Below are positions 36,230 to 52,395 of a stretch of DNA of 64,000 nt, piece after piece (the first letter of the stretch is position 1; each line of letters opens with the position of its first letter). Both the position numbers and the translations under genes were made by a program. Location: positions 372,001-436,000 of the forward strand of contig NZ_CP155729.1 in assembly GCF_039724765.1 (NCBI RefSeq). Direction: 5' to 3'. This DNA is from Sagittula stellata E-37 (GTDB lineage: Bacteria > Pseudomonadota > Alphaproteobacteria > Rhodobacterales > Rhodobacteraceae). The notes beneath the pieces are model-generated. The model was not told the DNA's origin, did no database searches, and worked only from the letters and a program-made list of their open reading frames with translations.

Positions 36230-36242
36230 AAGGAGCCTTTTC

Positions 36243-36793: not shown

Positions 36794-37813
36794 TCAGCCT
36801 TCGCGGTAGTAGTAGCTGTAGCCGTTCAGCGCCGGAGCGCCGCCAAGGTGGGCGTAGAGCACTTTGGACCCCTCGGGGAAGAACCCCTTGCGTGTGAGGT
36901 CGATCATGCCCTGCATGGATTTGCCCTCGTAAACCGGATCGGTCATCATCGCTTCCGTCCGCGCGGCAAGCCGGATGGCGTCGTTGGTTTCCTCCGACGG
37001 CACACCATACGCCGGGTAGGCGTAGTCGGGGTTGATGACGATCTCTTCGTCGCGCACCGCACGGCCCAGCCCGACCAGCTCAGAGGTGTTGTCGACGATG
37101 CTGCGCACCTGGGCGCGGGTCTGATCCACGGTGCCAGAGGCGTCGATGCCGATGACTGACTCCGCGCGATCCTGCGCGGCAAAGCCGACGATCATGCCGG
37201 CCTGGGTAGAACCGGTGACGACGCAGACGACGATATAGTCGAACTTGAACCCAAGCTCTTTTTCCTGCTCGGCCACTTCTTCGGCAAAGCCGATGTAGCC
37301 AAGGGCGCCGTACTTGTGCACGGACGCGCCCGCCGGGATCGGATAGGGGGTGCCGCCATCGTCCTTGACCGACTGGATCGCATCCTCCCAGCTTTTGCGG
37401 ATGCCGATGTCGAAGCCGTCTTCGACCATACGGGAATCCGCGCCCATCAGGCGGGTCATCAGGATGTTGCCGACGCGGTCGTAGACGGCATCGTAATGCG
37501 GCACCCATTTTTCCTGGATGACGACGCATTTCATGCCGATCTTGGCCGCGGTCGCCGCCACCATGCGGGTGTGGTTCGACTGTACGCCACCGATGGACAC
37601 CAGCGTATCCGCCCCCGAAGCGATGGCATCGGGCACGATGTATTCCAGCTTGCGCAGCTTGTTGCCGCCCATGGCGAGACCGGAGTTGCAGTCCTCGCGC
37701 TTGGCGTAGATCTCCACCTTGCCGCCGAGTGCCTCGGTCAACCTGGGCAGATGTTCGATCGGCGTCTTGCCGTAGGTGAGCGGGTAACGTTCGAACTTTT
37801 CGAGTAGCGACAT
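36794..37813 (-). CDS. acdS: 1-aminocyclopropane-1-carboxylate (ACC) deaminase
   Basis: This 339-residue PLP enzyme converts ACC, the plant ethylene precursor, to 2-oxobutyrate and ammonia. It matches AcdS along its length: [20 protein letters not shown] with the PLP lysine (K52), [48 protein letters not shown] and [16 protein letters not shown]. The two residues used to tell true ACC deaminase from D-cysteine desulphhydrase, Glu295 and Leu322 in the Pseudomonas enzyme, are present as E296 and L323. GGAG precedes the start by 8 nt. It is divergent from an Lrp-type gene, as acdS-acdR usually are. Confidence 0.92.
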
Positions 37814-37899
37814 GTGCTGGTCTCCATTGTGCAAGGTCGCCGCACGATAGCTCAAAGGCGATGAAAGGTGCTCTCGTTCTTGGGTGCGTGTTATTGGAT

Positions 37900-37919
37900 A
37901 TCCCGACATGTTTCGGTAT
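37900..37919. promoter_or_regulatory. Imperfect palindrome between acdS and its Lrp-type regulator
   Basis: The sequence follows AT-N-CCGA-N6-TCGG-N-AT: arms CCGA and TCGG around CATGTT, with outer AT pairs. It sits 87 bp upstream of acdS and 23 bp upstream of the chosen acdR start, and covers an ATG at 37918, arguing that translation starts downstream. It is a candidate AcdR operator. Confidence 0.5.
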
Positions 37920-37941
37920 GAATAATGAAGTGTCTTTCAAG

Positions 37942-38430
37942 ATGAGAGAAGAAATGGAAGAATCTTCCAATGCTGATCCTGACCGAATCGATCTCAAGAT
38001 TCTGCGTGCGTTGCAAAGCGATGGTCGCTTGACGAATGCAGAACTTGCCAGCCGGGTCGGTGTGAGTGCCGCGACCTGTCACCGGCGCACACAAAGGCTT
38101 TTTGATCTTGGATATGTGACAGGCGTGCGGGCGGCGATCAATCCGTCAGCCGTAGGTCTGGGTGCGCTTGTGATGGTCGGCGTCGTGCTGGACCGCTCTA
38201 CGCCGGAAAGCTTCGCGGCTTTCGAAGGGGCGGTGAACGCCATGAAAGAGGTGCTGGATTGCCAGCTTGTCGCGGGCGATTTCGACTACCTTCTGAAGAT
38301 CCGGGTGCGCGACATGAGCGACTTCAACAAGCTTCACGGTCAAAAGCTGATCGCGTTGCCTGGCGTCAGACAGACCCGGACGTTCTTCGTGATGCGCGAA
38401 GTCAAGGAGAACGGCTCGCTGGCGTTTTAG
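37942..38430 (+). CDS. acdR: Lrp/AsnC family regulator, AcdR-like
   Basis: This protein of about 162 residues has an N-terminal AsnC helix-turn-helix (DRIDLKILRALQSDGRLTNA, SRVGVSAATCHRRTQRLFDL) and a C-terminal AsnC effector domain (ALVMVGVVLDRSTPESFAAF through LIALPGVRQTRTFFVMREVK). Divergent Lrp-type genes next to acdS are known as acdR, which switches on acdS in response to ACC. Several in-frame ATGs exist; 37942 or 37954 are preferred, the latter having AGAGAAG just upstream, because an earlier ATG lies inside a palindrome. Confidence 0.8.
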   Translation: MREEMEESSNADPDRIDLKILRALQSDGRLTNAELASRVGVSAATCHRRTQRLFDLGYVTGVRAAINPSAVGLGALVMVGVVLDRSTPESFAAFEGAVNAMKEVLDCQLVAGDFDYLLKIRVRDMSDFNKLHGQKLIALPGVRQTRTFFVMREVKENGSLAF

Positions 38431-38434
38431 GCGG

Positions 38435-38452
38435 CGGCCCTTTTTGGGGCCG
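38435..38452. terminator. Hairpin between convergent acdR and dsdA
   Basis: CGGCCC and GGGCCG form a 6-bp stem around TTTTTG, 4 bp after the acdR stop codon and 66 bp beyond the dsdA stop on the other strand. The stem is short but fully GC. Confidence 0.45.
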
Positions 38453-38518
38453 TGATGTCATGCCCGACGAGCGGCCAGCCAACGCACTATGCTGGTTCCA
38501 AGGGAGCGTAGCGGGCTC

Positions 38519-39829
38519 TCACTGGGAGATTTTCTGCGGCAAGTCGAAAGCCTCGGGCAGGGCGGCGGCAGATGCCAGGAACGCCGCATGGGCAGTATCG
38601 GGGACAAAGCGGCCGCCCGTGGCCCAGACGATATGGGTGATGTCTTCGGGCGCGACCCCTTGCAGGTGCCGGGCGCGAAAGGCGGCCCCGGCGCCGCTGG
38701 TCACCAGGTGCAGCGGCCCGGCAAAACCGGCCGTGGCAGACGGTTCGAACCGCAGGCCCTGCGCCGCGCCGCAGGCGACCCAACGCAGCATGTCCGCATC
38801 GCCCACGGTGCAGACCCCGGCCAGACGCTGCCGCATCCGTGCGTGCACCAGCGGCGACAGGGTAGCGACGGCCATGCCGTCCGCTTCGGTCCGGTTGCTG
38901 AGGCCCAGATCGTGCACCGAGGGCGCATCAAACGCCATCTGGCAGAGCGCCGAAGCCGATTGCTGCGGCTCGACAAAGAAACTGTGCGCCGCCGCTCCGA
39001 ATATCGCCCGCGCGCCATAGGCGATGCCGCCCGGCGCGCCGCCGATGCCGCAGGGCAGATAGAGGCAGAGCGGCTTGTCCGGGGTGACAGCGATGCCCAT
39101 GGCGTCGAGCTGGATGGCCAGTTCCGCCGCCGCCGCGCTGTAGCCGCGAAACAGCAATTCAGAGGATTCGTCGTCGACGAAATAGCCATCCGGGTCCGCG
39201 TCGGTGGCTTCACGCGCGGCGGCAACGGCGGCAGTATAGTCGGCGGTGTGCAGCACCACCTCGACGCCGAGCTTGCGCAGACGCTCGAATTTCCAAGCCT
39301 TGGCATCATGCGACATATGTACGATGCAGCGGTAGCCCAAGGCCCGCGCGGCGATGCCGACGCTGAGCCCGAGGTTCCCGGTCGATCCGACGGCGATGGT
39401 CCTTTGGGCAAAGAAATCTCGCGTCTCTGCCAATTTGGTGACCGGGTCGTCCGGCCCCAGCAAGCCAGCGGCGCGGGACTGGGTGACGGCGCACATGAAG
39501 ACCTCGAAGATCCCGCCGCGCGCCTTGATCGACCCGGCGACGGGCAGCGCGTGGTCGCCCTTGATCAGCACGTGGCCAGGCAGGGGGCCAAAGGCGCCTT
39601 CGGGCACGGGGATCAGGTCCGATCCGATGTGCCCATGGGTGGCCTCAAGGTCCGGAAACACGCGGGCCAGAAGAGGGGCCAGCATCCTCCAATCCGCCAG
39701 GGCGCGGTCCAGATCCTGCCGTGCCTGAACGTCCTCGGCGGGCAGATAGGCCGGGTTGGCCCAGAGGGCCGAGCGGCCCGCGCGCACTGTGTCGCGCAGG
39801 GCATCGAGGTCGTCGGCCATGTCGCTCAC
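38519..39829 (-). CDS. dsdA: D-serine ammonia-lyase (D-serine deaminase)
   Basis: This 436-residue fold-type II PLP enzyme turns D-serine into pyruvate and ammonia. It has the DsdA hallmark HVLIKGDHALPVAGSIKARG with the PLP lysine K102, the glycine loop TIAVGSTGNLGLSVGIAARA, the region MSHDAKAWKFERLRKLGVEV, and LYLPCGIGGAPGGIAYGAR. Its stop is followed by the convergent acdR gene. It overlaps the upstream M20 peptidase gene by 4 bp (ATGA), so it is the last gene of the peptide-transport operon and should be made together with it. Confidence 0.92.
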   Translation of the reverse strand: MSDMADDLDALRDTVRAGRSALWANPAYLPAEDVQARQDLDRALADWRMLAPLLARVFPDLEATHGHIGSDLIPVPEGAFGPLPGHVLIKGDHALPVAGSIKARGGIFEVFMCAVTQSRAAGLLGPDDPVTKLAETRDFFAQRTIAVGSTGNLGLSVGIAARALGYRCIVHMSHDAKAWKFERLRKLGVEVVLHTADYTAAVAAAREATDADPDGYFVDDESSELLFRGYSAAAAELAIQLDAMGIAVTPDKPLCLYLPCGIGGAPGGIAYGARAIFGAAAHSFFVEPQQSASALCQMAFDAPSVHDLGLSNRTEADGMAVATLSPLVHARMRQRLAGVCTVGDADMLRWVACGAAQGLRFEPSATAGFAGPLHLVTSGAGAAFRARHLQGVAPEDITHIVWATGGRFVPDTAHAAFLASAAALPEAFDLPQKISQ

Positions 39830-41214
39830 CCCTTCGGCAGGCCCCGGTCCGCCAGGTCCGCAAACAGGCCCGTCGTGGCCACAAGCGCCTGCCGCGACAG
39901 CGATTTCAGCACGTGCTCGTTCGGCGCATGTTGCGAACAGCCCGCGTAGGAATGCGGCACCCAGATCGTCGGCAGGCCCAGAACCTCGGCAAAGCAGTCG
40001 TTGGGCAGCGATCCGCCGAGGTTGGGCAGGATGTCCGGGGCCACGCCCACGGCCCGTTCGATCGCCTCGGCAGCAAAGCGCACCATCAAGTGATCGGGAT
40101 CGAGCCGGGTCGCCGGGAAGCTGCCACGACCGTGTTCGACGATCTGAACCTTGTCAAAGCCTTCGCGGTCCAGATGGCGGCGCAGAGCGGGCAGGATGTC
40201 ATCGACCTCGGTGCCGACGACAAAGCGCAGCTGACAGGTGGCGCGGGCCGATCCGGCGATGGCGTTCAGCGGCGCTGCCGGCACACCCGATGTCATGGCG
40301 AGGATCGCGAAACTGTTCCAACCGAAGACGCGCTCCGCCGGGCTGAGATCCTCTTCGCCCCAGTCGGCATCCAGATCGATGCCGGTGTCATGCGGCGGCA
40401 GCTTGCCCAGCACCTCGCGGATGCGCGGGGTCAGGCTGTCGGGGCGCCATTCGGGAATGCGGATCTGGCCGCGCGCATCGGTGATGCTGGCCAGTGCATG
40501 GCACAGGATCATCGCCGGGTCGGCGAGCAGCCCGCCGAAATTGCCGGAATGGTTCGCGCCCTCGCGCAGATTGACCTCAAGATCGAAGCCAATGCCGCCG
40601 CGTGAGCCGGTGAAGATGGTCGGCGTGGAGGGGCGCAGGCGCGGCCCGTCCGAAGCGATGAACACATCGGCTGCCAGCAGGTCCTTGTTGGCCTCGCAAA
40701 AAGCCTTGAGACCGGGAGAGCCGGTTTCCTCGCCCATCTCGATGATCACCTTGGCGTTGAAGCCGAGCTTGCCCTGCGCCTTGATCACCGCCTCCATCGA
40801 CCGCAGGTTGACCAGGTGCTGCACCTTGTTGTCGGCGGCGCCGCGCCCGTACAGGCGGTCGCCCTCCTCGATCAGCTCGAACGGCGTCAGACCCTCGCGC
40901 CACTGGTCTTCCTGCGCGCGCACCACGTCGCCGTGGCCATAGCTGAGCACCGTCGGCAGGGCCGGGTCCTCGATCCGTTCGGCGGTCAGGATCGGCGGGC
41001 CGTCAGCTTGGGGGTTGTCGTGGAACTGGCAGGCAAAGCCCATGGCTTCCAGCATCGGGACCATGTCATCCTTCAGATAGGCATGGAGGTGCGGCTTGCC
41101 GCGGGGATCCTGGCTTTCCGTCGGGCGGGATACAAGCGTGGCTAGGTCACGTTGGAAATCGCCACTGTCATAATAGGCTTCGATGGTGGCGCGGGCGGTG
41201 TCTTGCAGGGTCAT
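39826..41214 (-). CDS. M20 family metallopeptidase/dipeptidase
   Basis: This 462-residue zinc peptidase has the M20 signatures: VLSYGHGDVVRAQ (first metal His and Asp), LYGRGAADNKVQHLVNL (bridging Asp), IEMGEETGSPGL (catalytic Glu pair) and a C-terminal LPNDCFAEVLGLPTIWVPHS. An inserted dimerisation domain lies at about 205-330. It should cleave dipeptides or N-acyl amino acids in the cytoplasm; no signal peptide is seen. It overlaps its neighbours on both sides by 4 bp. With gamma-glutamyltransferase upstream, its substrate is probably an imported small peptide. Confidence 0.9.
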   Translation of the reverse strand: MTLQDTARATIEAYYDSGDFQRDLATLVSRPTESQDPRGKPHLHAYLKDDMVPMLEAMGFACQFHDNPQADGPPILTAERIEDPALPTVLSYGHGDVVRAQEDQWREGLTPFELIEEGDRLYGRGAADNKVQHLVNLRSMEAVIKAQGKLGFNAKVIIEMGEETGSPGLKAFCEANKDLLAADVFIASDGPRLRPSTPTIFTGSRGGIGFDLEVNLREGANHSGNFGGLLADPAMILCHALASITDARGQIRIPEWRPDSLTPRIREVLGKLPPHDTGIDLDADWGEEDLSPAERVFGWNSFAILAMTSGVPAAPLNAIAGSARATCQLRFVVGTEVDDILPALRRHLDREGFDKVQIVEHGRGSFPATRLDPDHLMVRFAAEAIERAVGVAPDILPNLGGSLPNDCFAEVLGLPTIWVPHSYAGCSQHAPNEHVLKSLSRQALVATTGLFADLADRGLPKG

Positions 41215-42800
41215 TCTTGGGCCTTTGTATCGGGTTCGGCGACGCCGTCGCCCCAGGGCGACATGGTCTCGGTCGTGCCGGAATTGGTGGTGCCTTCGCG
41301 CATCACGCCTGCTGGACAGGCAAAGGCGAAGGGGAAGGGCAGGCGCTGCGCCAGCGCCGTCGGGAAACGCTTGGCCAGCGCGTCGGTCACGGGACCGGCC
41401 AGCCGTTCGTCAGCCACCACTTGTGCGCCGCCAGACGCGTCGATGCGCGGCGCCTCGATGGCCTCCTGCATTGACAGGCCCTGTTCGACAAGGTGGCCGC
41501 TGATCTGCGCCACGGCGGGCATGATCTTGCGCCCGCCCGAGGCACCCAGCGCAAAGCGGCGGGTCGGCGTTTCGCCGATGACCGGGCAGACATTCATCAG
41601 GCAGGCCTTGTCGGGGGCCAGCGAATTGGGTTTGCCCGGCTCGGGGTCGAACCACATGATGCCGTTGTTCAGCATCAGCCCGGTGCTCGGAGAGACCACC
41701 TTGGCCCCGAAGATCGACAGCAGGGTCTGGGTCATCGCGACCATGTTGCCGTTCCGGTCCACGATGGAGAAATGCGTTGTGCAGCCGGGGGCCTTGGCGC
41801 TCTCGTGGTCGCCCATGTTGGACAGCCGGTCGACATAGGCCGCGCGCAGCCCGTCGGCGCGGGCGACAAAGGCGGCGGGCGTGGCGGCGTCAGTGGAGAC
41901 ATAGCCGCTCTGCCAACGATACAGCGCATCGGCCAGCGTCGGGCCGGCGGTGAGGCCCGGCACGGCGTGAATCGTCGCGTCGCGGAAGGGGATCGCCAGC
42001 GGGTCGGACCAGACGGGCGCGTAGTCCCGCATGTCCTGCATCGACAGGAAACCGCCCTTGTCGGTGACATCGCGGACCAGCGCCTCGGCGATCTCGCCAC
42101 GGTAGAAGGCGGCCTCGCCTTCACGCGAAAGTAGATCGAGCGTGTCGGCCATCTTGCTCTGATCGAGTCGCTGATCGGCCAGCGCCGTCCAGCCCGAGCC
42201 CTTGGGCCATTGCCCGTCGTCCAGGAACAGCGCCGCGGCATCCGGGTCGCGCGCCAGATCGCGGGCGGAGGAGGCGATGACAAGCGCCGCGTACCAATCC
42301 ACATGCAGACCGGCCCGCGCCAAGTCGACAGCGGGGGCCAGCAGGTCCGACCAAGGCATCCGGCCAAAGCGGCCATGCGCGGCGGAAATCCCCGCCATGG
42401 TGCCCGGCACGGCAACCGAACTGGCGCCGGTGACGTTTCGATCCTCGACCACCGCTTCCCAGGGGAACAGGTCCGAAGCCTTGCCTGTTCCGGCGAGCGG
42501 GTAGTGGCCGACGTCCAGCGTCGCCGACGAGCGCATTCCGTAATTCAGCGCATGCGCCCGGTCGTCATCGGCGCGCCAGAGCATCATCGCCCCGCCGCCC
42601 ATCGGACCGGACATCCATGGTTCCAGCACGCCGATGGCAAAGCTGACGGCAACGGCGGCATCCACCGCGTCGCCGCCCGCGGCCAGCACCTCGGCCCCGA
42701 CTTCGGCGGCGCGGACGTGCTGGGCGGCGACGACCCCCGAAGAGGTCGCCGTCACACCCGGCTTGCGGGTGCGCGTGCTGCGAGAGAACGACCCGCTCAT
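41211..42800 (-). CDS. Gamma-glutamyltransferase family protein
   Basis: This 529-residue Ntn-hydrolase precursor should self-cleave before a threonine in KAPGCTTHFSIVDRNGNMVA (about residue 346-348) to give two subunits. Other family blocks are GGDAVDAAVAVSFAIGVLEP, MSGPMGGGAMM, and the C-terminal VCPVIGETPTRRFALGASGG. It removes or transfers gamma-glutamyl groups. No signal peptide is seen (MSGSFSRSTRTRKPG), so it appears cytoplasmic, unlike E. coli Ggt, and would act on imported compounds. The start is placed 4 bp inside the preceding ABC gene end (ATGA overlap). Confidence 0.88.
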   Translation of the reverse strand: MSGSFSRSTRTRKPGVTATSSGVVAAQHVRAAEVGAEVLAAGGDAVDAAVAVSFAIGVLEPWMSGPMGGGAMMLWRADDDRAHALNYGMRSSATLDVGHYPLAGTGKASDLFPWEAVVEDRNVTGASSVAVPGTMAGISAAHGRFGRMPWSDLLAPAVDLARAGLHVDWYAALVIASSARDLARDPDAAALFLDDGQWPKGSGWTALADQRLDQSKMADTLDLLSREGEAAFYRGEIAEALVRDVTDKGGFLSMQDMRDYAPVWSDPLAIPFRDATIHAVPGLTAGPTLADALYRWQSGYVSTDAATPAAFVARADGLRAAYVDRLSNMGDHESAKAPGCTTHFSIVDRNGNMVAMTQTLLSIFGAKVVSPSTGLMLNNGIMWFDPEPGKPNSLAPDKACLMNVCPVIGETPTRRFALGASGGRKIMPAVAQISGHLVEQGLSMQEAIEAPRIDASGGAQVVADERLAGPVTDALAKRFPTALAQRLPFPFAFACPAGVMREGTTNSGTTETMSPWGDGVAEPDTKAQE

Positions 42801-44434
42801 GCGACGGCCGGGGGCAGTGTGGAGACGTCGGGCACGTTCCAGTGCTGGCCGGGCTGGGCGTCCAGAAGCATCCGCGTGTAGGGGTGCGACGGCGCGCCAA
42901 ACACCTCTTCGACCGTGCCGCGTTCCACCACTTCGCCGCGCTGCATGACGATCAGCGTGTCGCAAACCTGCGCCGCGACCCGCAGGTCGTGGGTGATGAA
43001 GAGCACCGTCAGCCCCATGCGGTCGCGGATCTCGTTCAGCAGTTTCAGTACCTCTTTCTGCACCGAGACATCTAGTGCCGAGACAGCCTCGTCGGCGATC
43101 AGGATCTTCGGCTCGACCATCAGCGCGCGGGCGATGCAGATCCGCTGCCGCTGGCCGCCCGAGAACTGGTTGGGGTAGCGATTCAGCACCTCAGGACCCA
43201 GCCGCACGATTTTCATCAGCTCGCGGGCGCGGTCCATCGCCTGGGCGCGGTTTTCGCCAAAGTTCACCGGCCCCTCGACCAGCTGGTCGCCGATGGTCCG
43301 GCGCGGGTTCAGAGACCCGTAGGGGTCCTGGAACACAATCTGGATCTTCTTTCGATATGGGTGCAAGGCCCCGCGCGACATGAGGGCGATGTCCTTGCCC
43401 TCGACCGAGACCACACCGCTTTCGGGGTCTTCGAGCCGGATCAGGCATTTCACCAGCGTCGACTTGCCCGAGCCGCTTTCGCCGACAATGCCCAGCGTTT
43501 CCCCCTTGCGGACGGCAAAATCGACATCCTTGCAGGCATGGACCTCGCGCGCCTTGCGGAACATGCCGCCCGCGATGTGATAGGTCTTGTTCAGGCCCGT
43601 GACCTTGAGCATGTCCGGTGTGGTGATCGGTTCGGGAACCTCGCGCGTGCGGCGGGGCACGGCGTCGATCAGCAGCCGCGTGTAAGGGTGCTGCGGGCGA
43701 TTCAGCACTTCTTCGGCGCTGCCCTGTTCGACGATCTTCCCGTGCTGCATCACCACCACCCGATCGGCGATCTCGGCCACGACGTCGAAATCGTGGGTGA
43801 CGAACATGATGCCCGCATCGTGTTTCTCGCGCAGCTCCTTGAACAGGTGCAGGATCTGCTGCTGCGTCGACAGGTCCAGCGCGGTGGTCGGCTCGTCCGC
43901 GATCAGCAGCGCCGGATCCAGCGCAAGCGCCATGGCGATGACGATCCGCTGACGCTGGCCGCCCGACAGTTGGTGCGGGTAGGAGCTGTAGACACGCGGC
44001 GGATCGGGCAGATGCACCTCTTCGAGCAGCTTGATCGTGCGCGCCCGGCGCTCGGAGGCGCTGAGGCTGGTGTGCTGCTGGAACATCTCTTCGATCTGGT
44101 CGCCGACGGTGTAGCACGGGTTCAGCGCCGACATCGGTTCCTGGAAGATCATCGCCATGCGTCGCCCGCGCAGCGCGGCATGGGTGCGCTTGGGAAGCTT
44201 CAGCAGGTCGTGCCCGTCAAAGCGGATCTCGCCCCCGGTGGGCGTCAGCGCCTTGGGCAGCAGACCCATGGTGGTGAAGGCGGTGATCGACTTGCCCGAC
44301 CCGCTTTCGCCGACGATGCAGACGATTTCTTTCGGCATCACCTTGAGCGACAGGTTGTCGACGGCGTGGTCCCGGTCCGCGGCCTTGGGCAAGGCGACGG
44401 TGAGGTTGTCGATGGACAGGATGGGATCGGTCAT
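42797..44434 (-). CDS. Fused double ATP-binding protein of a dipeptide-type ABC importer (DppD-DppF)
   Basis: This 545-residue protein joins two ABC ATPase domains. The first has Walker A GESGSGKS (about 40), signature LSGGQRQR and Walker B ALLIADEPTTALD. The second has Walker A GESGSGKST (about 320), signature FSGGQRQR and Walker B KILIADEAVSALD. Each ends with the HPYTRLLIDA / HPYTRMLLDA oligopeptide-transporter motif. It energises uptake of di/oligopeptides or similar. The start at 44434 overlaps the upstream permease stop. Fused DppDF proteins are common in Rhodobacteraceae. In the second domain Walker B reads DEAVS rather than DEPTS, a known variant. Confidence 0.93.
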   Translation of the reverse strand: MTDPILSIDNLTVALPKAADRDHAVDNLSLKVMPKEIVCIVGESGSGKSITAFTTMGLLPKALTPTGGEIRFDGHDLLKLPKRTHAALRGRRMAMIFQEPMSALNPCYTVGDQIEEMFQQHTSLSASERRARTIKLLEEVHLPDPPRVYSSYPHQLSGGQRQRIVIAMALALDPALLIADEPTTALDLSTQQQILHLFKELREKHDAGIMFVTHDFDVVAEIADRVVVMQHGKIVEQGSAEEVLNRPQHPYTRLLIDAVPRRTREVPEPITTPDMLKVTGLNKTYHIAGGMFRKAREVHACKDVDFAVRKGETLGIVGESGSGKSTLVKCLIRLEDPESGVVSVEGKDIALMSRGALHPYRKKIQIVFQDPYGSLNPRRTIGDQLVEGPVNFGENRAQAMDRARELMKIVRLGPEVLNRYPNQFSGGQRQRICIARALMVEPKILIADEAVSALDVSVQKEVLKLLNEIRDRMGLTVLFITHDLRVAAQVCDTLIVMQRGEVVERGTVEEVFGAPSHPYTRMLLDAQPGQHWNVPDVSTLPPAVA

Positions 44435-45345
44435 CAGTTGCGGCCCTCCGGTGCGGTGATGTCGCGCAGGCCATCGCCCAGCATGTTGATGGCAAGAACA
44501 AGCGAGAAGAGCGCCACGCCCGGTATGGTGATCAGCCAGGGCTCGAACAGCAGCATCTCCTTGCCTTCGGAAATCATCAGGCCCCAGGACGGGGTCGGCG
44601 GCTGCACGCCAAGACCCAGGAAGGACAGCGCGGCTTCCAGGATGATGGCATGAGCCATTTCCAGCGTGAAGATCACGATCAGGTGGTTCATCACGTTGGG
44701 CAGAATGTCCTTCCAAAGGATGCGCGGTAGCGGCGCGCCCAGCACCTCGGCGGCGGCGACGTATTCCTGCTTGCGGACCTGCATCGTGGCCGAGCGCAGC
44801 ACCACGGCAAAACGGTCCCAAAGCAGCAGGCCCATCACCGACACGACAACGAAGAGCGACCCGCCAAACAGTGCCACCACGGCCAGTGCTACCAGCACCA
44901 CCGGCATCGCCAGCCGCACGTTGATCAGGAAGGTCACGACCGCATCGACCTTGCCGCCGAAGTAGCCGGCGAGGATGCCCAGGGTCGAGCCGATGATGCC
45001 CGAGATCACGGCGGCCGAGATGCCGATCAGCAGCGAGATCCGCGCGCCATAGGCCAGCCGTGCCCAAAAGTCCCGGCCCAACCCGTCAGTGCCCAGCCAG
45101 TGTTCGGATGTGCCCCCCAGGAATATGGGCGGTTTCATCCGGGCCAACAGGCTTTGTTGATAGGGATCGTACTGGGTGAGCAGTGGCGCGAAGACCGCCA
45201 CAAATACGACGATCAGCATCACGACAAAGCCGAACATGAAGCCCTTGTGTTGCAGCGCGCGCCGGCGCATCGCCTGTGCGGGGGTCATGGGTTTGTCGCG
45301 CGCGTCTTTCGCGGACAGCGGAGCGGTGTTGGATGTATCGGCCAT
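44434..45345 (-). CDS. Dipeptide-type ABC transporter permease, DppC-like
   Basis: This 303-residue inner-membrane permease has an N-terminal hydrophilic tail, a first helix at about 35-58 (FVVMLIVVFVAVFAPLL), the periplasmic GTDGLGRDFWARLAYGARIS motif typical of DppC/OppC, and four or five further helices. The EAA loop is around EYVAAAEVLGAPLPRILWKD. The start at MADTSNTAP is chosen; it lies 8 bp after the upstream permease stop. Confidence 0.9.
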   Translation of the reverse strand: MADTSNTAPLSAKDARDKPMTPAQAMRRRALQHKGFMFGFVVMLIVVFVAVFAPLLTQYDPYQQSLLARMKPPIFLGGTSEHWLGTDGLGRDFWARLAYGARISLLIGISAAVISGIIGSTLGILAGYFGGKVDAVVTFLINVRLAMPVVLVALAVVALFGGSLFVVVSVMGLLLWDRFAVVLRSATMQVRKQEYVAAAEVLGAPLPRILWKDILPNVMNHLIVIFTLEMAHAIILEAALSFLGLGVQPPTPSWGLMISEGKEMLLFEPWLITIPGVALFSLVLAINMLGDGLRDITAPEGRN

Positions 45346-45353
45346 GTCAGTCC

Positions 45354-46271
45354 TCAGCCCACGCGCAGCCGTGGATCCAGCCAGGCGTTCAGGACGTCGG
45401 CCAGGAAAGTGAACAGGATGTAGAAGGTCGAGAAGATCAGGATCAGCGCCTGCATGGTCGGCAGGTCGTTGCGCGAGATGGACTCCCACGCCAGATAGCC
45501 CGCGCCATGCAGCGCAAAGACCGTCTCGACGACGATGGAGCCGCCCAGCATGAAGCCCATCTGAACTGCGGCGAGGCTGACCACCGGGATGATGGCGTTG
45601 CGCAGCGCGTGTTTGAACATGACCTTTCCGGTGCCAAGGCCCTTGGCCCGGGCGGTGCGGATGTAGTCCGAGGACAGCACCTCCATCATGCCGGCCCGGG
45701 TCAGGCGCATGATCGCGGGGGTGGCGTAATAGCCCAGCACCACGGTGGGCAGCACGAAGTTGCGCCAGCTCTCATTGCCCGAGGCCGGGACGAGCCCGAG
45801 GTTGATCGAGAAGATCACGATCAGGATCAGGCCGAACCAGAAGGAGGGGATGGCCTGACCGACCACGGACAGGAACAGCGCGAAACGGTCGATCAGCGAA
45901 TTGGGATTGGCGGCGGCGGCGACACCGAGCGGGATCGCCACAAGCAGCGCCAGCGTGATGGAATAGATCCCCAGCTTCATCGTGATTTTCAGACGGTCGC
46001 CGATCAGCTCGGTCACGGACATGTCGAAATACCATGAATTGCCAAGATCGCCGGTGATGGCCGAGCCCAGCCAGTCTCCGTACTGAACGATCATCGGCCG
46101 GTCGAAGCCGAAGCGTTCGTTGATCAGCGCGATATCCACAGCAGTGGCGTTTTCGCCCGCTATGGCCACCGCCGGGTCGCCCGCGAGGAACAGCAGGCTG
46201 AAACTGATGAAAGACACGGTCAGCGCCACCAGAAGGGCCAGACCGAGACGTTTGAGTATGAAGACGGCCAT
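45354..46271 (-). CDS. Dipeptide-type ABC transporter permease, DppB-like
   Basis: This 305-residue permease starts MAVFILKRLGLALLVALTVS, the typical first helix of DppB/OppB. It has GDWLGSAITGDLGNSWYFDM before the second helix, and the EAA loop around YIRTARAKGLGTGKVMFKHA. It pairs with the DppC-like subunit to form the channel. It lies 69 bp downstream of the binding-protein gene. Confidence 0.9.
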   Translation of the reverse strand: MAVFILKRLGLALLVALTVSFISFSLLFLAGDPAVAIAGENATAVDIALINERFGFDRPMIVQYGDWLGSAITGDLGNSWYFDMSVTELIGDRLKITMKLGIYSITLALLVAIPLGVAAAANPNSLIDRFALFLSVVGQAIPSFWFGLILIVIFSINLGLVPASGNESWRNFVLPTVVLGYYATPAIMRLTRAGMMEVLSSDYIRTARAKGLGTGKVMFKHALRNAIIPVVSLAAVQMGFMLGGSIVVETVFALHGAGYLAWESISRNDLPTMQALILIFSTFYILFTFLADVLNAWLDPRLRVG

Positions 46272-46340
46272 CGTGCGTCACCTTCCGGACAGATCAAGGC
46301 GACGGGTCGCGAGCGTCACGCTGCGCGACCCGTCCGAGTT

Positions 46341-47855
46341 TTACTTCCAGGAGAAATCCGCGAAGCGGACAAGTTCGTCATCCGTGGGATCGAATTCGAG
46401 CTCTTTGGTCAGCACGTAGTTGACGTTGTAGGTCCAAAGCGGCACCCAATAGGCTTCGTCCGCGATCTTGGCGTGGGCTTTCGAATAAAGCTCTTTGCGC
46501 TCGGCGCGGTCTGTGGTGGCGCCTGCGGTTTTCACCCATTCGATGACCTCGGGGTCCATCGCATCGTCGAGCGGCCCGCCGGTGAAGAATTCACCCGTGA
46601 TCGCGGAGACGTCCGCCAGCGAGTACGAACCCCAGGTCTGGAAGGAAATCGGGACTTCCTTCTTCTCGCGCTTTTCACGCAGGGCTGCGTACTTCAGGTA
46701 GTTGAAGTTGGTCTTGATCCCGACCTCGTTCAGGAACCCCATGAGCGCCTCGGCATAGGGGCGGTCGCGGTAGGCGTAGAAGTCGATCTCGAACCCGTCC
46801 GGGTAGCCCGCTTCGGCCAGCAGGGCCTTGGCTTTTTCCGGATCGTAATCGTAGGTCGTCACGCTCAGGTCACAGCCGAACTGGATCGGGGCGCAGCCCG
46901 CGTTGACCACTTCGGACGAGCCTTTGACCAGCGCATCGACAATCGCCTGACGGTCGATGGCGTGGTAGATCGCCTGGCGGACTTTCGGATCGGTCATCGG
47001 GCCATCGGGATCGACGGCGCCTGCCGCATCCATCGAGATATAGCCGACGCGGATCGCCTGGGCGTTGACCACGTCAAAGCGGTCGTCCATCTCGGCCAGC
47101 TTTTCGGCCTGGTCCGCGGGAACGTTCCACAAGAAGTCGAGCCCGCCGTTGAACAGCTCCGCGACCTGGGTGTTCATGTCGGGGATCGTCTTGACCTCGA
47201 TCTTGCCGATCTGCGCTTCACCCTTCGGGCTGTCGTGGTAGTCTTCGTACTTGGACAGCTCGTAAAGCTGGCCCGGCTCGACCCGATCGACCTTGTAGGG
47301 GCCGGTGCCGATGGGGGCCGTTGCCATGCCGGTCGGGCCAACCTCGGCGTAATATTCATCCGGGTACATGACGACCGGGCCGGCCAGATATTCCTCGGCG
47401 GGCGGGAAGGGTGCGACCAGGTTGATGCGCACGGTGTAATCGTCGATCTTCTCGGCGCTTTTCATCCAGTTGACGTTGGCCGAGACTTTGACCCCGTTTT
47501 CCGGGTCGGTCACATAGTTGACCGTGTAGACCACGTCGTCTGCATTGAAGGGCTCGCCATTGTGGAACTTGACGTCTTCGCGCAGCTTGAACTCGACCGT
47601 GACATCGTCGATCCACGTCCATTCCGTCGCCAGGTTGCCTTTGAATTCGCCGGTCTCAGGGTCGCGAAACAAAAGTCCGTCCCAGACCGCGCGGGAGATC
47701 AGGATGCCTTCCCGGGCCGAGTTGAAGTAGTTGTCGACCGATTCCAGCTCTTTCAGAAACGCCAGGCGGAGCGTGTCGTCGGCCTTGTCGGCAAAGGCGG
47801 GCGCGGCGAATGCCAGGCTCAACGCTGTGCCCATCATCAGGGTCTTGAGTTTCAT
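46341..47855 (-). CDS. ABC transporter substrate-binding protein, peptide class (SBP_bac_5)
   Basis: This 504-residue periplasmic protein has a Sec signal peptide (MKLKTLMMGTALSLAFAAPA, cleavage after FADK region). It shows the SBP_bac_5 pattern: VEFKLREDVKFHNGEPFNAD near residues 95-120, APIGTGPYKVDRVEPGQLYE, and VRQAIYHAIDRQAIVDALVK. It binds the imported peptide or peptide-like compound. It is the first gene of the seven-gene operon running to dsdA. A TTGTATACAA palindrome lies 50-59 bp upstream of its ATG, suggesting control by the nearby GntR-family regulator. The start is chosen at the signal peptide; the upstream extension crosses the operator. Confidence 0.9.
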   Translation of the reverse strand: MKLKTLMMGTALSLAFAAPAFADKADDTLRLAFLKELESVDNYFNSAREGILISRAVWDGLLFRDPETGEFKGNLATEWTWIDDVTVEFKLREDVKFHNGEPFNADDVVYTVNYVTDPENGVKVSANVNWMKSAEKIDDYTVRINLVAPFPPAEEYLAGPVVMYPDEYYAEVGPTGMATAPIGTGPYKVDRVEPGQLYELSKYEDYHDSPKGEAQIGKIEVKTIPDMNTQVAELFNGGLDFLWNVPADQAEKLAEMDDRFDVVNAQAIRVGYISMDAAGAVDPDGPMTDPKVRQAIYHAIDRQAIVDALVKGSSEVVNAGCAPIQFGCDLSVTTYDYDPEKAKALLAEAGYPDGFEIDFYAYRDRPYAEALMGFLNEVGIKTNFNYLKYAALREKREKKEVPISFQTWGSYSLADVSAITGEFFTGGPLDDAMDPEVIEWVKTAGATTDRAERKELYSKAHAKIADEAYWVPLWTYNVNYVLTKELEFDPTDDELVRFADFSWK

Positions 47856-47904
47856 GGTAGTCCTCTCTGTTGGTGTTCGTGGCGTGTATTTTTCTTGGTT
47901 ATCC

Positions 47905-47914
47905 TTGTATACAA
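47905..47914. promoter_or_regulatory. GntR-type operator upstream of the peptide-transport operon
   Basis: Perfect palindrome TTGTATACAA, preceded by CC as in the second copy at 48795. It is the sort of site bound by FadR/FCD-subfamily GntR regulators. It lies 50-59 bp upstream of the substrate-binding-protein start. Confidence 0.8.
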
Positions 47915-48091
47915 CATGAGAGGATTGTAATCCGTCAAGTGACTCCTGAAGTTTTTGAACTTTCGACGCGCAACAAATAGGCAATGGCTACGATTTGAGC
48001 GCTGCGGCCGCTTTGGCGCTATCGCACAGTTTGTCCGGCGCTGGCCGGTGCCATCGCGACGTGGTCTGTGCTGGCCGTCGTTGTCCCGCGC

Positions 48092-48748
48092 CTAAGAGGC
48101 TACGGCCTTGAGGCTCGCCATCAGGCTCTGGAACCGTTCACCCTGTACGGCCACATGGTTGCGCAGTGCATTGGCGGCAGCAACGGAATCGCCCTCGGCC
48201 AGTGCCGCGACAATGATCTCATGTTCGGACATGGATTGCTTCAGCCGGCCCCGGAAGCGCAGTTGCTGACGCCGGAAGGGGCGCAGGCGTTTGTGCAGTT
48301 TCAGGCTTTCCTGTTCGAGAAAGCTGTTGCCGGATTCCCGGTAGATCGTTGCATGAAAGCGTGCGTTTTCAGCGTAGTACAGGTCGGTATCCTGCGCATC
48401 CGAGGCCGCCTGACAACGCCTGTTGGCTTCGCGCAGTTCTTCGAGCGCCTCGTTCGACATCCGCCTGGCAGCGAGGCGGGCGCAAACGGCTTCAAGCTCC
48501 GCCATGACCTCGAACATCTCCAGCAGTTCCAGCGGTCCGGGCTGGCGAACAAAGGCGCCGCGCCGCGGGATCAGTGTCACCAGCCCGGAGCTTTCCAGCC
48601 GTTGCAGCGCCTCGCGTAGGGGCGTGCGGGACACACCGAACTGCTCTGCCAGCCGCACCTCATCCAAGCGATCACCGTCGGCGAAGGTGCCGTCGAAGAT
48701 CATTTTCTCAAGAGAATTCGCGATATTCACTGCGCTGCGCTGTTCCAT
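48092..48748 (-). CDS. matR: GntR family transcriptional regulator, FCD type (MatR-like)
   Basis: This 218-residue regulator has an N-terminal winged helix (about 8-72, with DEVRLAEQFGVSRTPLREAL and RLESSGLVTLIPRRGAFVRQ) and a C-terminal FCD all-helical effector domain with metal-ligand type histidines (ENARFHATIYRESGN, LRNHVAVQGERFQSLM). It is divergent from matAB, as matR is in rhizobial malonate operons. Two TTGTATACAA palindromes flank it: one before its own start and one before the peptide-transport operon. Malonate is the likely effector by analogy; a peptide-derived acid is the alternative. Confidence 0.82.
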   Translation of the reverse strand: MEQRSAVNIANSLEKMIFDGTFADGDRLDEVRLAEQFGVSRTPLREALQRLESSGLVTLIPRRGAFVRQPGPLELLEMFEVMAELEAVCARLAARRMSNEALEELREANRRCQAASDAQDTDLYYAENARFHATIYRESGNSFLEQESLKLHKRLRPFRRQQLRFRGRLKQSMSEHEIIVAALAEGDSVAAANALRNHVAVQGERFQSLMASLKAVAS

Positions 48749-48794
48749 TCAAAAAAGCTAGCCGGGGGATTGCGTGCGCGCAACAACTAATGCC

Positions 48795-48804
48795 TTGTAT
48801 ACAA
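48795..48804. promoter_or_regulatory. GntR-type operator in the matR-matA intergenic region
   Basis: Perfect palindrome TTGTATACAA, sharing CCTTGTATACAA with the copy at 47905. It lies 47-56 bp upstream of matR and 158-167 bp upstream of matA. The sequence fits the palindrome reported, as I recall, for rhizobial MatR. Confidence 0.82.
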
Positions 48805-48961
48805 AAACATTGACCTGTGAAACACGGCGCACCTATGATCGAAGTCGAAAGCCGTTCCTTCGGCGTTTGCCTTCGTTGACGTAGCCCACGGAAATCAGGC
48901 GACTATCCCAAGCCACGGCGCGCAACGTAGGAATGAGACCCTTGCGACAAGGACCTTCGAC

Positions 48962-50215
48962 ATGACGCTATTGGCCGACTTTCTGTCTACCATGCTTGAT
49001 CGCCGGTCCCGCGCAGCGGGGCATGGGCGGGCGTCTTCGCGTCCGGTCGAGCGCCTCATGGCCGATCTTTTGGGCAGTGCGGGCGAAATGTCCGAACTCG
49101 CGCTGGCACAGGACATTCTGGACCACTACGCCAGTCTCGATGACGCCGGGAAACTGGACTTCCTCGGGCACCTTGCCCATGACATGAACATCGACCCCGA
49201 AGCCGTACGTTCGGCCCTGGAGGCCTACGAACAGGCCCCGTCGAAACGGAGTTACCGCGCCTTCATGCAAGCCGCCGAACCACCTCGGCAAGAGCTGATC
49301 CGTCGCCTGAACCGGGTGCCAGGCGCCACCGGTGCGCTGGTGGGGATGCGCGCCGATCTGTTGCGGCTGTCGGGCGACGATCCCGAACTGGCGGCGCTGG
49401 ATCTGGACTTTCGGCATCTCTTTGCCTCTTGGTTCAACCGCGGGTTCCTCGTGCTCCGACCGATAAGTTGGGAAAGCCCGGCTCATATACTGGAAAAGAT
49501 CACCGCCTACGAAGCGGTTCACGCGATCCAAAGCTGGGACGATCTGCGCCGCCGCCTGCGGCCCCGGGACCGCCGGTGCTTTGCCTTCTTCCATCCCGCA
49601 ATGCCGGACGAGCCGCTGATCTTCGTTGAAGTGGCCCTCACCAAGGGCATTCCCGGGTCCGTTCAGGCGTTGCTGACCGAAAACCGAACGACGCTTGCCC
49701 CCGAGACCTGTGACACGGCGGTCTTCTATTCCATCTCGAACTGTCAGGCCGGGCTTGCGAGCGTGTCCTTCGGCAACTCGCTGATCAAGCAGGTTGCGGC
49801 CGATCTGTCGGCAGAATTGCCGGGGCTGACCCGCTTCGTCACGCTTTCGCCGATCCCGCTGCTGACAACATGGGCCAAGGCCGAAGGCATCGCGATGCCG
49901 GACGATCCAGAGGCCCGTCGCGCACTGGCCGCGCATTACCTGCTGCACGCAAAGGAGCGGGGCAATGCGCCCTTCGATCCGGTGGCCCGGTTCCATCTGG
50001 GCAACGGAGCCCTCGTGCACGCGGTTCATGCCGATGCCGACGCGTCGCCCAACGGGCAGGCGCAGTCGGGTGGTGTGATGGTCAATTATCTCTACGATCT
50101 GGCGCAGGTCGCGGCCCATCACGAAGACTTCCAAACCAAGCAGAAAATCACGGCCAGCTCCGAGGTGACCTCGCTGGCAAAGGCAGGCGCCCAAGCGGTG
50201 ACGGCGGAAAGGTAA
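48962..50215 (+). CDS. matA: Malonyl-CoA decarboxylase
   Basis: This 417-residue protein matches MatA/MLYCD. It has an N-terminal helical domain (about 1-120) and a C-terminal acetyltransferase-like catalytic domain with LFASWFNRGFLVLRPISWES, CFAFFHPAMPDEPLIFVEVA, YSISNCQAGLASVSFGNSLI and the histidine-containing FDPVARFHLGNGALVHAVH. It converts malonyl-CoA to acetyl-CoA and CO2. AAGGACC precedes the ATG. matB follows after 4 bp. Confidence 0.92.
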   Translation: MTLLADFLSTMLDRRSRAAGHGRASSRPVERLMADLLGSAGEMSELALAQDILDHYASLDDAGKLDFLGHLAHDMNIDPEAVRSALEAYEQAPSKRSYRAFMQAAEPPRQELIRRLNRVPGATGALVGMRADLLRLSGDDPELAALDLDFRHLFASWFNRGFLVLRPISWESPAHILEKITAYEAVHAIQSWDDLRRRLRPRDRRCFAFFHPAMPDEPLIFVEVALTKGIPGSVQALLTENRTTLAPETCDTAVFYSISNCQAGLASVSFGNSLIKQVAADLSAELPGLTRFVTLSPIPLLTTWAKAEGIAMPDDPEARRALAAHYLLHAKERGNAPFDPVARFHLGNGALVHAVHADADASPNGQAQSGGVMVNYLYDLAQVAAHHEDFQTKQKITASSEVTSLAKAGAQAVTAER

Positions 50216-50219
50216 GACA

Positions 50220-51731
50220 ATGGCCAACCCTCTTTACGATACCCTTTTTGGCGCTCATGCGGGAAGCGAGGCCCCGTTCCTCTATTTGCCCGATGGCAAC
50301 AAGATCACCTACGCCGGGTTTCTGGAGAGCAGCGCCCAGATCGCGCATGTGCTGACAGGGCTTGGGCTGTGGGCGGGTGACAGGGTCGCGCTTCAGGTGC
50401 AGAAATCGCCGCAGGCGCTGGCGGTTTTCGCGGCCTGCGTGCAGGCGGGGCTGGTGCTTTTGCCGCTGAACACCGCATACACCACTGAAGAGCTGACCTA
50501 TTTCATTGAAAACAGCGGCGCCGCGCTGGTGATCATCGACAGCGGCAAGCTGGAGGCGCTGGCCCCCGTGGCAGAAGGGCTGGGCGCCAGGGTCGAAACG
50601 CTGAATGCGGATGGAAGCGGATCGCTGACCGACAAGGCCGCGCAGGCCCCGCGCCAGTTCGACACCGTGCCGCGCGGCGAAGACGATCTTGCGGCATTCC
50701 TTTATACCTCGGGAACCACGGGCCGCTCCAAGGGCGCAATGCTGACCCAGGCGAACCTGTTGTCGAATGCGCGGACGCTGGTTCAGGAATGGCGGTTCAC
50801 GGCGGATGACGTTTTGCTGCATGCCCTGCCGATTTTTCACACGCATGGGCTGTTCGTGGCGACCAACGTGACGCTGGTGGCCGGGGGCAGCATGATCTTC
50901 CTGCCCGGCTTCGATCTCGATCAGATCCTGGCGCAGATGCCCAAGGCCACGGCGATGATGGGGGTGCCCACCTTCTACACGCGCCTGCTGGACGATCCGC
51001 GTTTCACGCGCGGGGCGGCGGTGCATATGCGGCTGTTCATCTCCGGCTCGGCGCCCCTTCTGGCGGAAACCCATGTCCAGTTCGAAGCCCTTACCGGTCA
51101 GCGCATCCTCGAACGCTATGGCATGACCGAAACCAACATGAACACCTCGAACCCCTATGACGGCGAACGCCGCGCGGGCACCGTCGGCTTTCCCTTGCCG
51201 GGGGTCGAGCTGAAGATCACCAATCCCGAGACGGGCGCGACTCTGCCGCAGGGCGAGGTCGGCGCGATCGAGGTGCGTGGCCCGAATGTCTTCAAGGGCT
51301 ACTGGCAGATGCCGGAAAAGACTGCCGCCGAACTGCGCGAGGACGGCTTCTTCATCACCGGCGATCTGGGTGTGATCGACGCGGACGGATACGTGAGCAT
51401 CGTGGGCCGTAGCAAGGATCTGATCATCTCGGGCGGCTACAACATCTACCCCAAGGAAATCGAATTGGTGCTGGATGAGCAGGACGGGGTTCTGGAAAGC
51501 GCCGTGATCGGCGTGCCGCATCGCGATTTCGGCGAAACCGTGGTGGGCGTTCTGGTGCCGCGAAATGGCGCGACGCTGGATACCGACGCCATCATGGAAA
51601 AGATCCGGCAACCGCTCGCCCGGTTCAAGCACCCGCGCCGTCTTGTGGTGGTCGACAGCCTGCCGCGCAACACGATGGGCAAGGTGCAGAAGAACCTCCT
51701 GCGGGACGAATTCAAAGACCTGTTTGTGTAG
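50220..51731 (+). CDS. matB: Malonyl-CoA synthetase
   Basis: This 503-residue AMP-forming acyl-CoA ligase has the P-loop FLYTSGTTGRSKGAMLTQAN, the A5-type motif LERYGMTETNMNTSNPYDGE, GFFITGDLGVIDADGYVSIV and the C-terminal lysine region LPRNTMGKVQKNLLRDEF. The MTETNMNTSNPYDGERRAG segment is characteristic of MatB. It activates malonate with CoA and ATP for decarboxylation by MatA. No matC-type malonate carrier is adjacent; uptake must be encoded elsewhere, or malonate arises inside the cell. Confidence 0.92.
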   Translation: MANPLYDTLFGAHAGSEAPFLYLPDGNKITYAGFLESSAQIAHVLTGLGLWAGDRVALQVQKSPQALAVFAACVQAGLVLLPLNTAYTTEELTYFIENSGAALVIIDSGKLEALAPVAEGLGARVETLNADGSGSLTDKAAQAPRQFDTVPRGEDDLAAFLYTSGTTGRSKGAMLTQANLLSNARTLVQEWRFTADDVLLHALPIFHTHGLFVATNVTLVAGGSMIFLPGFDLDQILAQMPKATAMMGVPTFYTRLLDDPRFTRGAAVHMRLFISGSAPLLAETHVQFEALTGQRILERYGMTETNMNTSNPYDGERRAGTVGFPLPGVELKITNPETGATLPQGEVGAIEVRGPNVFKGYWQMPEKTAAELREDGFFITGDLGVIDADGYVSIVGRSKDLIISGGYNIYPKEIELVLDEQDGVLESAVIGVPHRDFGETVVGVLVPRNGATLDTDAIMEKIRQPLARFKHPRRLVVVDSLPRNTMGKVQKNLLRDEFKDLFV

Positions 51732-52260: not shown

Positions 52261-52330
52261 GGGATGTCTCCTTTCGGTGCCGGATCCGTCTGCCTTCCAA
52301 TGGGTTGTGCAGATTTTCTTGCGACAGGGC

Positions 52331-52361: not shown

Positions 52362-52395
52362 GAAATCCGACCGCGACTCACAATGGATATTAGTC

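Follow-up and report, generated by a model that had tools for sequence, protein, structure and literature searches.

A stretch of 64,000 nucleotides from the alphaproteobacterium Sagittula stellata E-37, probably a marine bacterium (contig NZ_CP155729.1, positions 372,001 to 436,000; this whole stretch is called the window) carries a group of catabolic genes at 36794-51731. A sequence-only reading had proposed here a pathway for conjugates of 1-aminocyclopropane-1-carboxylate (ACC) and D-amino acids, naming an ACC deaminase (AcdS), a D-serine deaminase (DsdA), an M20 hydrolase, a GGT-family protein, an ATP-binding cassette (ABC) importer, malonyl-CoA decarboxylase (MCD) and malonyl-CoA synthetase (MatB), and all of these were found (Table 1). 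Seven minus-strand genes lie head to tail in the order SBP-OppB-OppC-OppDF-GGT-M20-DsdA (SBP, solute-binding protein), with intergenic gaps, counted from DsdA upward, of -4, -4, -4, -1, 8 and 69 nt; because they overlap or abut, they very likely form a single operon. This operon is flanked by an acdR/acdS pair on one side and by a GntR gene and the divergent matA-matB genes on the other, so that the GntR gene sits between the hydrolase operon and matAB. The acdS gene is its own unit, with a divergent Lrp/AsnC regulator, AcdR, which the earlier reading left unmentioned; membership of acdS in the window's operon was thus ruled out (in genome G367 acdS comes after the operon in the same orientation). 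The nearest named protein relatives of the window are from Tropicibacter, Sulfitobacter and Salipiger.

Table 1. Genes and operator-like sites at the locus (window positions; ORF, open reading frame)
Feature	Position	Strand	Remarks
acdS, ACC deaminase	36794..37813	-	338-339 aa; listed ORF begins upstream at 37909
acdR-like Lrp/AsnC regulator	37918..38430 (ORF from 37861)	+	PF01037, PF13404; divergent from acdS
dsdA, D-serine ammonia-lyase	38519..39829	-	GTG start; final gene of the operon
M20 metallohydrolase (NF005478)	39826..41214	-	proposed N-malonyl-amino-acid amidohydrolase
GGT-fold (T03) N-terminal nucleophile (Ntn) hydrolase	41211..42800	-	PF01019; proposed second acyl-amide hydrolase
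Opp-class ABC importer (next four rows)	42797..47855	-
Fused OppD-OppF type ATPase	42797..44434	-	NCBIfam YejF/GsiA/OppD/OppF models; start set by overlap
OppC-type permease	44434..45345	-	PF00528, PF12911
OppB-type permease	45354..46271	-	PF00528, PF19300
Family-5 solute-binding protein	46341..47855 (ORF to 47984)	-	PF00496, 268 bits; Sec-type signal sequence by eye
Operator-like palindrome TTGTATACAA, promoter of SBP-DsdA operon	47905..47914	.	exact match, ~50 bp before SBP start
GntR/FCD regulator, MatR-like	48092..48748	-	PF00392, PF07729
Second operator-like TTGTATACAA, GntR-matA intergenic region	48795..48804	.	exact match
matA, malonyl-CoA decarboxylase (MCD)	48962..50215	+	PF05292 298.6 bits, PF17408 94.2 bits
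matB, malonyl-CoA synthetase	50220..51731	+	PF00501, PF13193; 657 bits vs structure 4fuq

The matAB genes have the layout of a malonate operon, with MCD and MatB adjacent, GntR divergent and an operator-like palindrome between them. Exact copies of this palindrome, TTGTATACAA, occur twice in the window, once before the SBP operon and once before matA, where 0.16 copies are expected even with one mismatch allowed. The motif was spotted post hoc by reading the window's intergenic DNA, and relatives were checked only afterwards; a first-guess operator pattern, ATACNNNNNNGTAT, had given no matches. The two sites recur in the same places in all four Sulfitobacter/Pseudosulfitobacter loci checked (L011, L012, L013 and L165; L denotes a locus, G a genome). 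In malonate operons that carry a tripartite ATP-independent periplasmic (TRAP) transporter, the exact site lies in the gap between the TRAP genes and a divergent GntR gene in L109, L134, L139 and L151; the gap in L133 has a version with one mismatch, and L120 has no site. Exact sites were found in 11 of 136 loci (2.64 Mb, overlaps included), L137 and L145 being second fetches of L011 and L109; the one in L144 adjoins another GntR gene. One-mismatch sites lie in the operon-GntR gap of L015, L072, L132 and L171, which have the operon and a GntR neighbour without mat genes, and the motif was absent from L014, L043, L062, L120, L147 and L152. The window's GntR protein is 72% identical to the GntR protein of the mat-TRAP operon in L133, 68% to that in L134, 59% to that in L109 and 50% to those in L139 and L120. 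Based on the shared operator-like sites and this likeness, the hydrolase operon of the window's clade very likely belongs to a malonate regulon; we infer that the GntR protein binds both sites and that malonate acts as inducer. The operator of Rhizobium MatR presumably has the same core as TTGTATACAA.

The importer and hydrolase genes are also joined to malonate or ACC genes in other genomes. Three single-direction gene runs link the importer and M20 to mat (two runs) or to acdS (one). In G384, one strand carries SBP-OppB-C-D-F-M20-MCD-MatB, in which M20, MCD and MatB are spaced by about 20-30 nt each; the cassette contains no GGT gene, and the genome has no AcdS at the scan threshold used. 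Nitratireductor sp. pb3 (L043) has ABC-GGT-M20-DadA-amidase-MCD-MatB, and in G367 (L147) the genes ABC-GGT-M20-amidase are followed 272 nt downstream, on the same strand, by acdS, with no AcdR called there. Looser groupings are also found. Nitratireductor luteus (L062/L139) has mat-TRAP-MCD-MatB, AcdR/AcdS and ABC-GGT-M20 side by side; in G356 (L151), ABC-M20 without GGT lies close to MatB-MCD-TRAP; and in G015 (L108/L131), AcdR/AcdS adjoins another Opp-type importer, an M20-like protein and, separately, an M20 of 63% identity. Paracoccus xiamenensis (L066) carries MatB-MCD, GntR and ABC-GGT-M20-SBP with an N-acylamino-acid racemase (NAAAR) downstream of M20 (432 bits against the NAAAR structure 2ggg). 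A gene for such a racemase follows M20 in L040, L055 and L170 too, where the fetched flank has no mat genes.

The fullest relative is plasmid p5 of Pseudosulfitobacter pseudonitzschiae, whose source is the diatom Skeletonema costatum: it carries MatB-MCD, GntR, ABC-GGT-M20-DsdA-amidase-RidA-FAD (flavin adenine dinucleotide) oxidoreductase and AcdR/AcdS. Among Pseudosulfitobacter plasmid records, 45 have M20 and 45 have acdS, gene order having been read in p5 alone. According to its record listing, a plasmid of Sulfitobacter alexandrii whose source is the dinoflagellate Alexandrium minutum has M20 and GGT. Plasmid pPABY5 of Salipiger abyssi has the same set as p5 minus mat, plus a TauE/SafE exporter, and a protein annotated as transketolase follows acdS. 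Plasmid contexts of acdS in Thioclava GXIMD4215 and Shinella HZN7 have no M20 or mat genes within ~12-14 kb; over the same distance, that in Nitratireductor thuwali has a malonyl-CoA synthase and no M20, and a Thioclava GXIMD4216 plasmid has M20 and TauE but no importer, mat or acdS. Downstream of the p5 cluster (L165, 24110-29480) lies a separate set, comprising an ornithine cyclodeaminase-like protein, a DSD1-family protein, a pyridoxal-phosphate-dependent enzyme, a class V aminotransferase and IclR, which resembles the beta-hydroxyaspartate cycle.

A TauE/SafE-family membrane protein (PF01925) likewise follows M20 in L015, L072, L104/L132, L166 and L171, that is, in five genomes among 40 selected loci and the window. 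None of the five has MCD or MatB in the fetched flank (in G263, to which L104 belongs, MCD lies at another place); export of the released acid by TauE may there replace its use. G263 has no GGT gene between OppDF and M20, and for this reason M20 looks like the core hydrolase of the system.

Whether such associations exceed chance was judged in two samples: 295 genomes of the window's family, its own genome being excluded from the tests, and 199 genomes of a second family chosen via Nitratireductor luteus, itself left out. Some genomes of both samples had been met earlier via their GGT gene (e.g. G306). The null was uniform placement, which is lenient since catabolic genes cluster, and the p values given here are uncorrected for the number of tests. 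In the window's family, AcdS is found in 12 genomes, GGT in 21, M20 in 52 and MCD in 107. AcdS and M20 occur together in seven genomes versus 2.1 expected (Fisher 0.0014), and they lie within 10 kb in two of eight pairs (0.038 expected, p 7e-4); the corresponding counts are two of 15 pairs for GGT-MCD (0.071 expected, p 0.0024) and one of nine for AcdS-MCD (0.043 expected, p 0.042). GGT and M20 lie within 10 kb in 10 of 16 pairs, which is the operon itself. In the second family, ten genomes have both AcdS and M20 (4.8 expected, p 0.008), with two of 13 pairs within 10 kb (0.054 expected, p 0.0014) and three within 20 kb (0.108, p 2e-4). M20 and MCD lie within 10 kb in one of 22 pairs (0.092 expected, p 0.09) and within 20 kb in two (0.183, p 0.015).

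To survey the wider distribution of the operon, an alignment of 26 GGT sequences was scanned against GTDB species genomes, which confirmed at least 569 relatives; the best 80 GGT loci of these were kept with flanks of up to 10 kb, some ending at contig ends. In gene maps of these 80 loci, SBP-OppB-OppC-OppD-OppF-GGT-M20 emerges as an operon that is common among alphaproteobacteria and usually accompanied by an IclR regulator. The codon-scored caller behind the maps left most genes of L152 and L020 uncalled, as well as the GGT gene in four of the 80 loci; for L152, tblastn and an ORF list were used in its place. A census of neighbours left out the four GGT-missed loci and 14 taken as non-alphaproteobacterial and added the window, giving 63 loci, which form 32 groups at 80% GGT identity with 470 neighbour families. 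Most of these families (435) are confined to a single group, 14 are shared by two and 21 by at least three. The 21 recurrent families include MatB (four groups) and MCD, AcdS, DsdA and a DadA-like oxidase (three each), the window's clade counting as one group; the others are the operon's own genes, regulators, hydrolases (amidase, M20-like, MlrC-like) and the unannotated c22 and c31. Two records, L040 (titled Bacillus subtilis SK6B4) and L073 (titled Bordetella parapertussis, a metagenome-assembled genome), have loci that resemble those of Alphaproteobacteria and of Alcaligenaceae metagenome-assembled genomes among the 80, and appear mislabelled or contaminated. The co-localisation counts, the census and the shared operator-like site indicate that these genes are associated beyond chance. 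The expectation that mat, acdS and transport genes would co-occur in other genomes was borne out, by the three joined gene runs and by co-localisation in two families.

The two deaminases are well supported. AcdS passes the TIGR01274 equivalog (550.6 bits, cut-off 392), scores 505 bits against the ACC deaminase structure 1rqx and carries all of K51, S78, Y294, E295 and L322 (1rqx numbering), the residues that tell ACC deaminase from D-cysteine desulfhydrase; D-cysteine desulfhydrase models score below cut-off. In many relatives, acdR-like genes 63-78% identical to that of the window stand divergent from acdS. DsdA passes NF002823 (438.3 bits, cut-off 246) and, barely, TIGR02035 (369.9, cut-off 368.25), and scores 308 bits against the D-serine dehydratase structure 3ss7. 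It is rare in the window's family (two of 149 genomes, the window's own counted) and was dropped as a family-wide marker for that reason.

The M20 protein scores 672.2 bits against NF005478 (cut-off 330), and its metal ligands and catalytic glutamate (H94, D128, E162, E163, D189, H222 and H429) are invariant in 41 of 41 sequences. The AlphaFold2 models of M20 and of the GGT-fold protein (pLDDT, the predicted local confidence, 89.7 and 84.6) and their fold comparisons are compatible with several substrates. Matches of M20 include dipeptidases, DapE, ArgE, an N-carbamoylase and an aminoacylase, and those of the GGT-fold protein include HpxW (5hft), an oxamate amidohydrolase. The importer is of the Opp/Dpp/Gsi class, and the top NCBIfam match of its SBP is GsiB, at 162.1 bits, below the equivalog cut-off of 594.

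The GGT-fold protein scores 304.5 bits with PF01019 and keeps the catalytic threonine of the T03 Ntn fold, and it misses the gamma-glutamyltransferase equivalog TIGR00066 (241.8 bits, cut-off 357.85). Escherichia coli GGT binds gamma-glutamate through R114, N411, Q430, D433, S462 and S463; at these places the window's protein has G88, L361, G380, W383, M402 and N403, nearly all canonical residues being gone. The L, G, W and N are invariant in 77 of 77 GGT-like proteins where canonical GGTs have N/E, Q/E, D and S, while G88 is kept in 73 and M402 in 63 of the 77; R90, two residues off the arginine place, is R in 72. No signal peptide was seen by eye at the N-terminus. The same genome encodes a separate GGT (L160) with the canonical R/E/E/D/S/S, which paralogues L161 and L162 do not keep. 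The earlier reading had also offered gamma-glutamyl-ACC as a substrate, and for this there is no support: the binding residues are nearly all lost, the GGT equivalog score is too low, a signal peptide is not visible, and the GGT gene is absent from the G384 and G356 cassettes as well as from its place in G263. Gamma-glutamyl-ACC was accordingly rejected as the leading reading on the residue table. The malonyl branch of the same idea is supported by the cassettes, the shared site and the co-localisation. Members of the same GGT-like clade (57-61% identity) also occur, without this M20 gene, in betaproteobacterial-type loci among L042-L087, where by eye they adjoin polysaccharide-deacetylase-like and TctC-type binding-protein-like families. 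Since the clade occurs without M20 beside other recurrent families, a broader function of the GGT-fold enzyme is probable.

N-malonyl-ACC and N-malonyl-D-amino acids are described as conjugates that remove ACC and D-amino acids from circulation in plants (PMC5258695, PMC6921899, PMC7432710), and a single malonyltransferase, as yet unidentified, is the presumed enzyme for which ACC and D-amino acids compete there (PMC6921899, PMC7432710). The importer and hydrolases of the window are surrounded by malonate genes, ACC deaminase and D-amino-acid enzymes, which points to N-malonyl conjugates as the substrate. These conjugates are, to our knowledge, the sole class that joins malonate, ACC and D-amino acids. 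No TRAP or MatC-type malonate carrier lies beside matAB, whose neighbours are GntR and a MerR/P-type ATPase pair (the search was confined to this neighbourhood), and this fits malonate that is generated inside the cell. On balance, this locus probably serves the catabolism of N-malonyl conjugates, both those of D-amino acids and those of ACC. No description of bacterial degradation of N-malonyl-ACC or N-malonyl-D-amino acids was recognised in the open-access literature searched.

In the proposed mechanism, the SBP and the Opp-type importer would take up the whole conjugate, and the cytoplasmic M20 enzyme, as the core hydrolase, would cut the malonyl amide with help from the GGT-fold Ntn hydrolase and, in relatives, from the amidase-signature enzyme. 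Released D-serine or D-threonine would pass to DsdA, and released ACC to AcdS, yielding 2-oxobutyrate and ammonia; in relatives, other D-amino acids would be handled by a DadA-like dehydrogenase together with RidA, or alternatively racemisation of the N-acyl form would come first. Malonate would be converted to malonyl-CoA by MatB and then decarboxylated by MCD to acetyl-CoA, with the MatR-type GntR regulator controlling the hydrolase operon and matAB via the same operator. Gene content, spacing, the duplicated operator-like site and recurrence are established from the sequence; from them we infer what the substrate is, which hydrolase opens the malonyl amide and how the hydrolases divide the labour.

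Several results weigh against this reading. Among the 55 loci that hold both GGT and M20, the fetched flank is devoid of mat as well as acdS in 48; mat is found in six and acdS in five, three of these being one Sulfitobacter clade. Close relatives with D-amino-acid genes (Cohaesibacter L015 and L072, Salipiger L171, and G263) have no mat genes nearby. The hydrolase-operon site was seen only in the window's clade, with none in L043, L147 or L152 and one by matA in L066. The co-localisation counts carry the leniency of their null and are uneven: in the window's family, M20 and MCD lie within 10 kb in none of 27 pairs (one within 20 kb, p 0.23) and AcdS and GGT within 10 kb in none of three, and in the second family AcdS and MCD lie within 20 kb in none of 21. 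The nearest solved relatives of M20 are the dipeptidases CN2, CNDP1 and Dug1, so peptides may also be substrates. Finally, no report of N-malonyl-D-amino acids in algae was found in the open-access literature.

The locus could instead import and break down peptides that contain D-amino acids, of peptidoglycan or algal origin, using the Opp importer, M20 as a dipeptidase and the GGT-like protein as a peptidase. D-serine and other D-amino acids would then go to DsdA, DadA/RidA and AcdS, the last acting on D-serine or D-cysteine, and matAB would be a mere neighbour. The kinship of M20 to dipeptidases, the class of the importer, the recurrence of D-amino-acid enzymes and the 49 of 55 related loci without mat all fit such a function, which we regard as unlikely but, together with another acyl group, as the main rival. 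It leaves unexplained why the operon's promoter carries a site of malonate operons, as well as the single-run ABC-M20-MCD-MatB cassette and the N-acylamino-acid racemase, and AcdS retains the ACC-type E295 and L322. That racemase, present without mat in three of its four loci, would sit well with substrates carrying another acyl group (succinyl, oxalyl, carbamoyl or acetyl), or with N-acyl amino acids in general, malonate being one of several. So would the DapE, ArgE, N-carbamoylase, aminoacylase and HpxW folds and the majority clade of GGT+M20 loci, which comes with an IclR regulator and lacks mat. We nevertheless consider this breadth quite improbable for the window: MatB and MCD are the only acyl-handling genes recognised among the recurrent census families (c22 and c31 being unannotated), and the regulator site matches malonate operons.

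Scavenging of glutathione or gamma-glutamyl peptides, gamma-glutamyl-ACC included, by the importer, GGT and a Cys-Gly-type M20 dipeptidase would account for the GsiB match, the similarity of M20 to Dug1/CN2 and the conserved R90. It was down-weighted on the GGT residues and the sub-cut-off GsiB and GGT scores and is very improbable, given also the lack of a visible signal peptide and the presence of L160 with canonical residues. Equally hard to credit is a chance or island neighbourhood in which unrelated acdRS, matAB and Opp-hydrolase modules happen to lie side by side. Most relatives of each module do stand without the others, but the associations are repeated in different arrangements in two families, three gene runs join the modules and the operator-like site is shared.

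Two neighbouring gene sets may be mentioned. Just past acdS lies a pyruvate-dehydrogenase-type E1-E2-E3 set (30453-36725, minus strand) with an Lrp gene (36246-36725, plus strand), and in the acdS loci L041, L104, L105 and L171, the gene after acdS encodes a transketolase/E1-like protein that is a different one, at 25-27% identity. The AcdS product, 2-oxobutyrate, may have a dehydrogenase of its own. Past matB, a MerR-type regulator diverges from a heavy-metal P-type ATPase (51832-54678), an unrelated metal-resistance pair.

The origin of the fullest relative, a plasmid from a diatom culture, hints at an algal source of the conjugates. We put forward, tentatively and as possible rather than probable, that M20 is the first recognised bacterial N-malonyl-amino-acid hydrolase and that MatR-controlled loci on roseobacter plasmids feed diatom-associated, and probably dinoflagellate-associated, bacteria on N-malonyl-D-amino acids and N-malonyl-ACC. 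If so, marine microalgae, beyond land plants, make N-malonyl conjugates, and bacteria can re-open the ACC pool that their hosts have sealed, so that these conjugates would both nourish bacteria and give them a handle on the ethylene metabolism of their hosts. An orphan M20 clade would gain a function, and the joint travel of ACC deaminase, D-amino-acid enzymes and malonate genes, as on the diatom-associated Pseudosulfitobacter plasmid, would be explained.

Four known systems invite comparison. The malonate utilisation operons MatR-matABC and matPQMAB share with the window a GntR/FCD regulator divergent from the mat genes and the palindrome TTGTATACAA, and TRAP-bearing mat relatives are 50-72% identical to the window in GntR, 44-70% in MCD and 59-78% in MatB. 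Unlike in these operons, the mat genes here have no adjoining TRAP or MatC-type carrier for malonate, and the site is repeated before the ABC-hydrolase operon. The divergent Lrp regulator and an ACC deaminase with the signature residues recall the acdR-acdS pairs of proteobacteria (PMC4048297). Unlike in the usual pairs, acdS here adjoins (and in G367 lies directly downstream of) an importer-hydrolase operon that possibly supplies ACC from a conjugate. With the Gsi/GGT glutathione system the locus shares a family-5 SBP, an Opp-type ABC importer, a GGT fold and an M20 dipeptidase-like enzyme; it differs in that its GGT protein lacks most gamma-glutamate-binding residues and a visible signal peptide, a canonical GGT being encoded elsewhere in the genome. 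The N-acylamino-acid racemase/M20 acylase route, which converts D- to L-amino acids, likewise employs an M20 hydrolase on N-acyl amino acids, and its racemase is present in the four loci named above. In L066, unlike in that route, the racemase adjoins malonate genes (mat is missing from the fetched flank of the other three), and malonate may for this reason be the acyl group there. The parts thus belong to known families; their combination and regulation look new.

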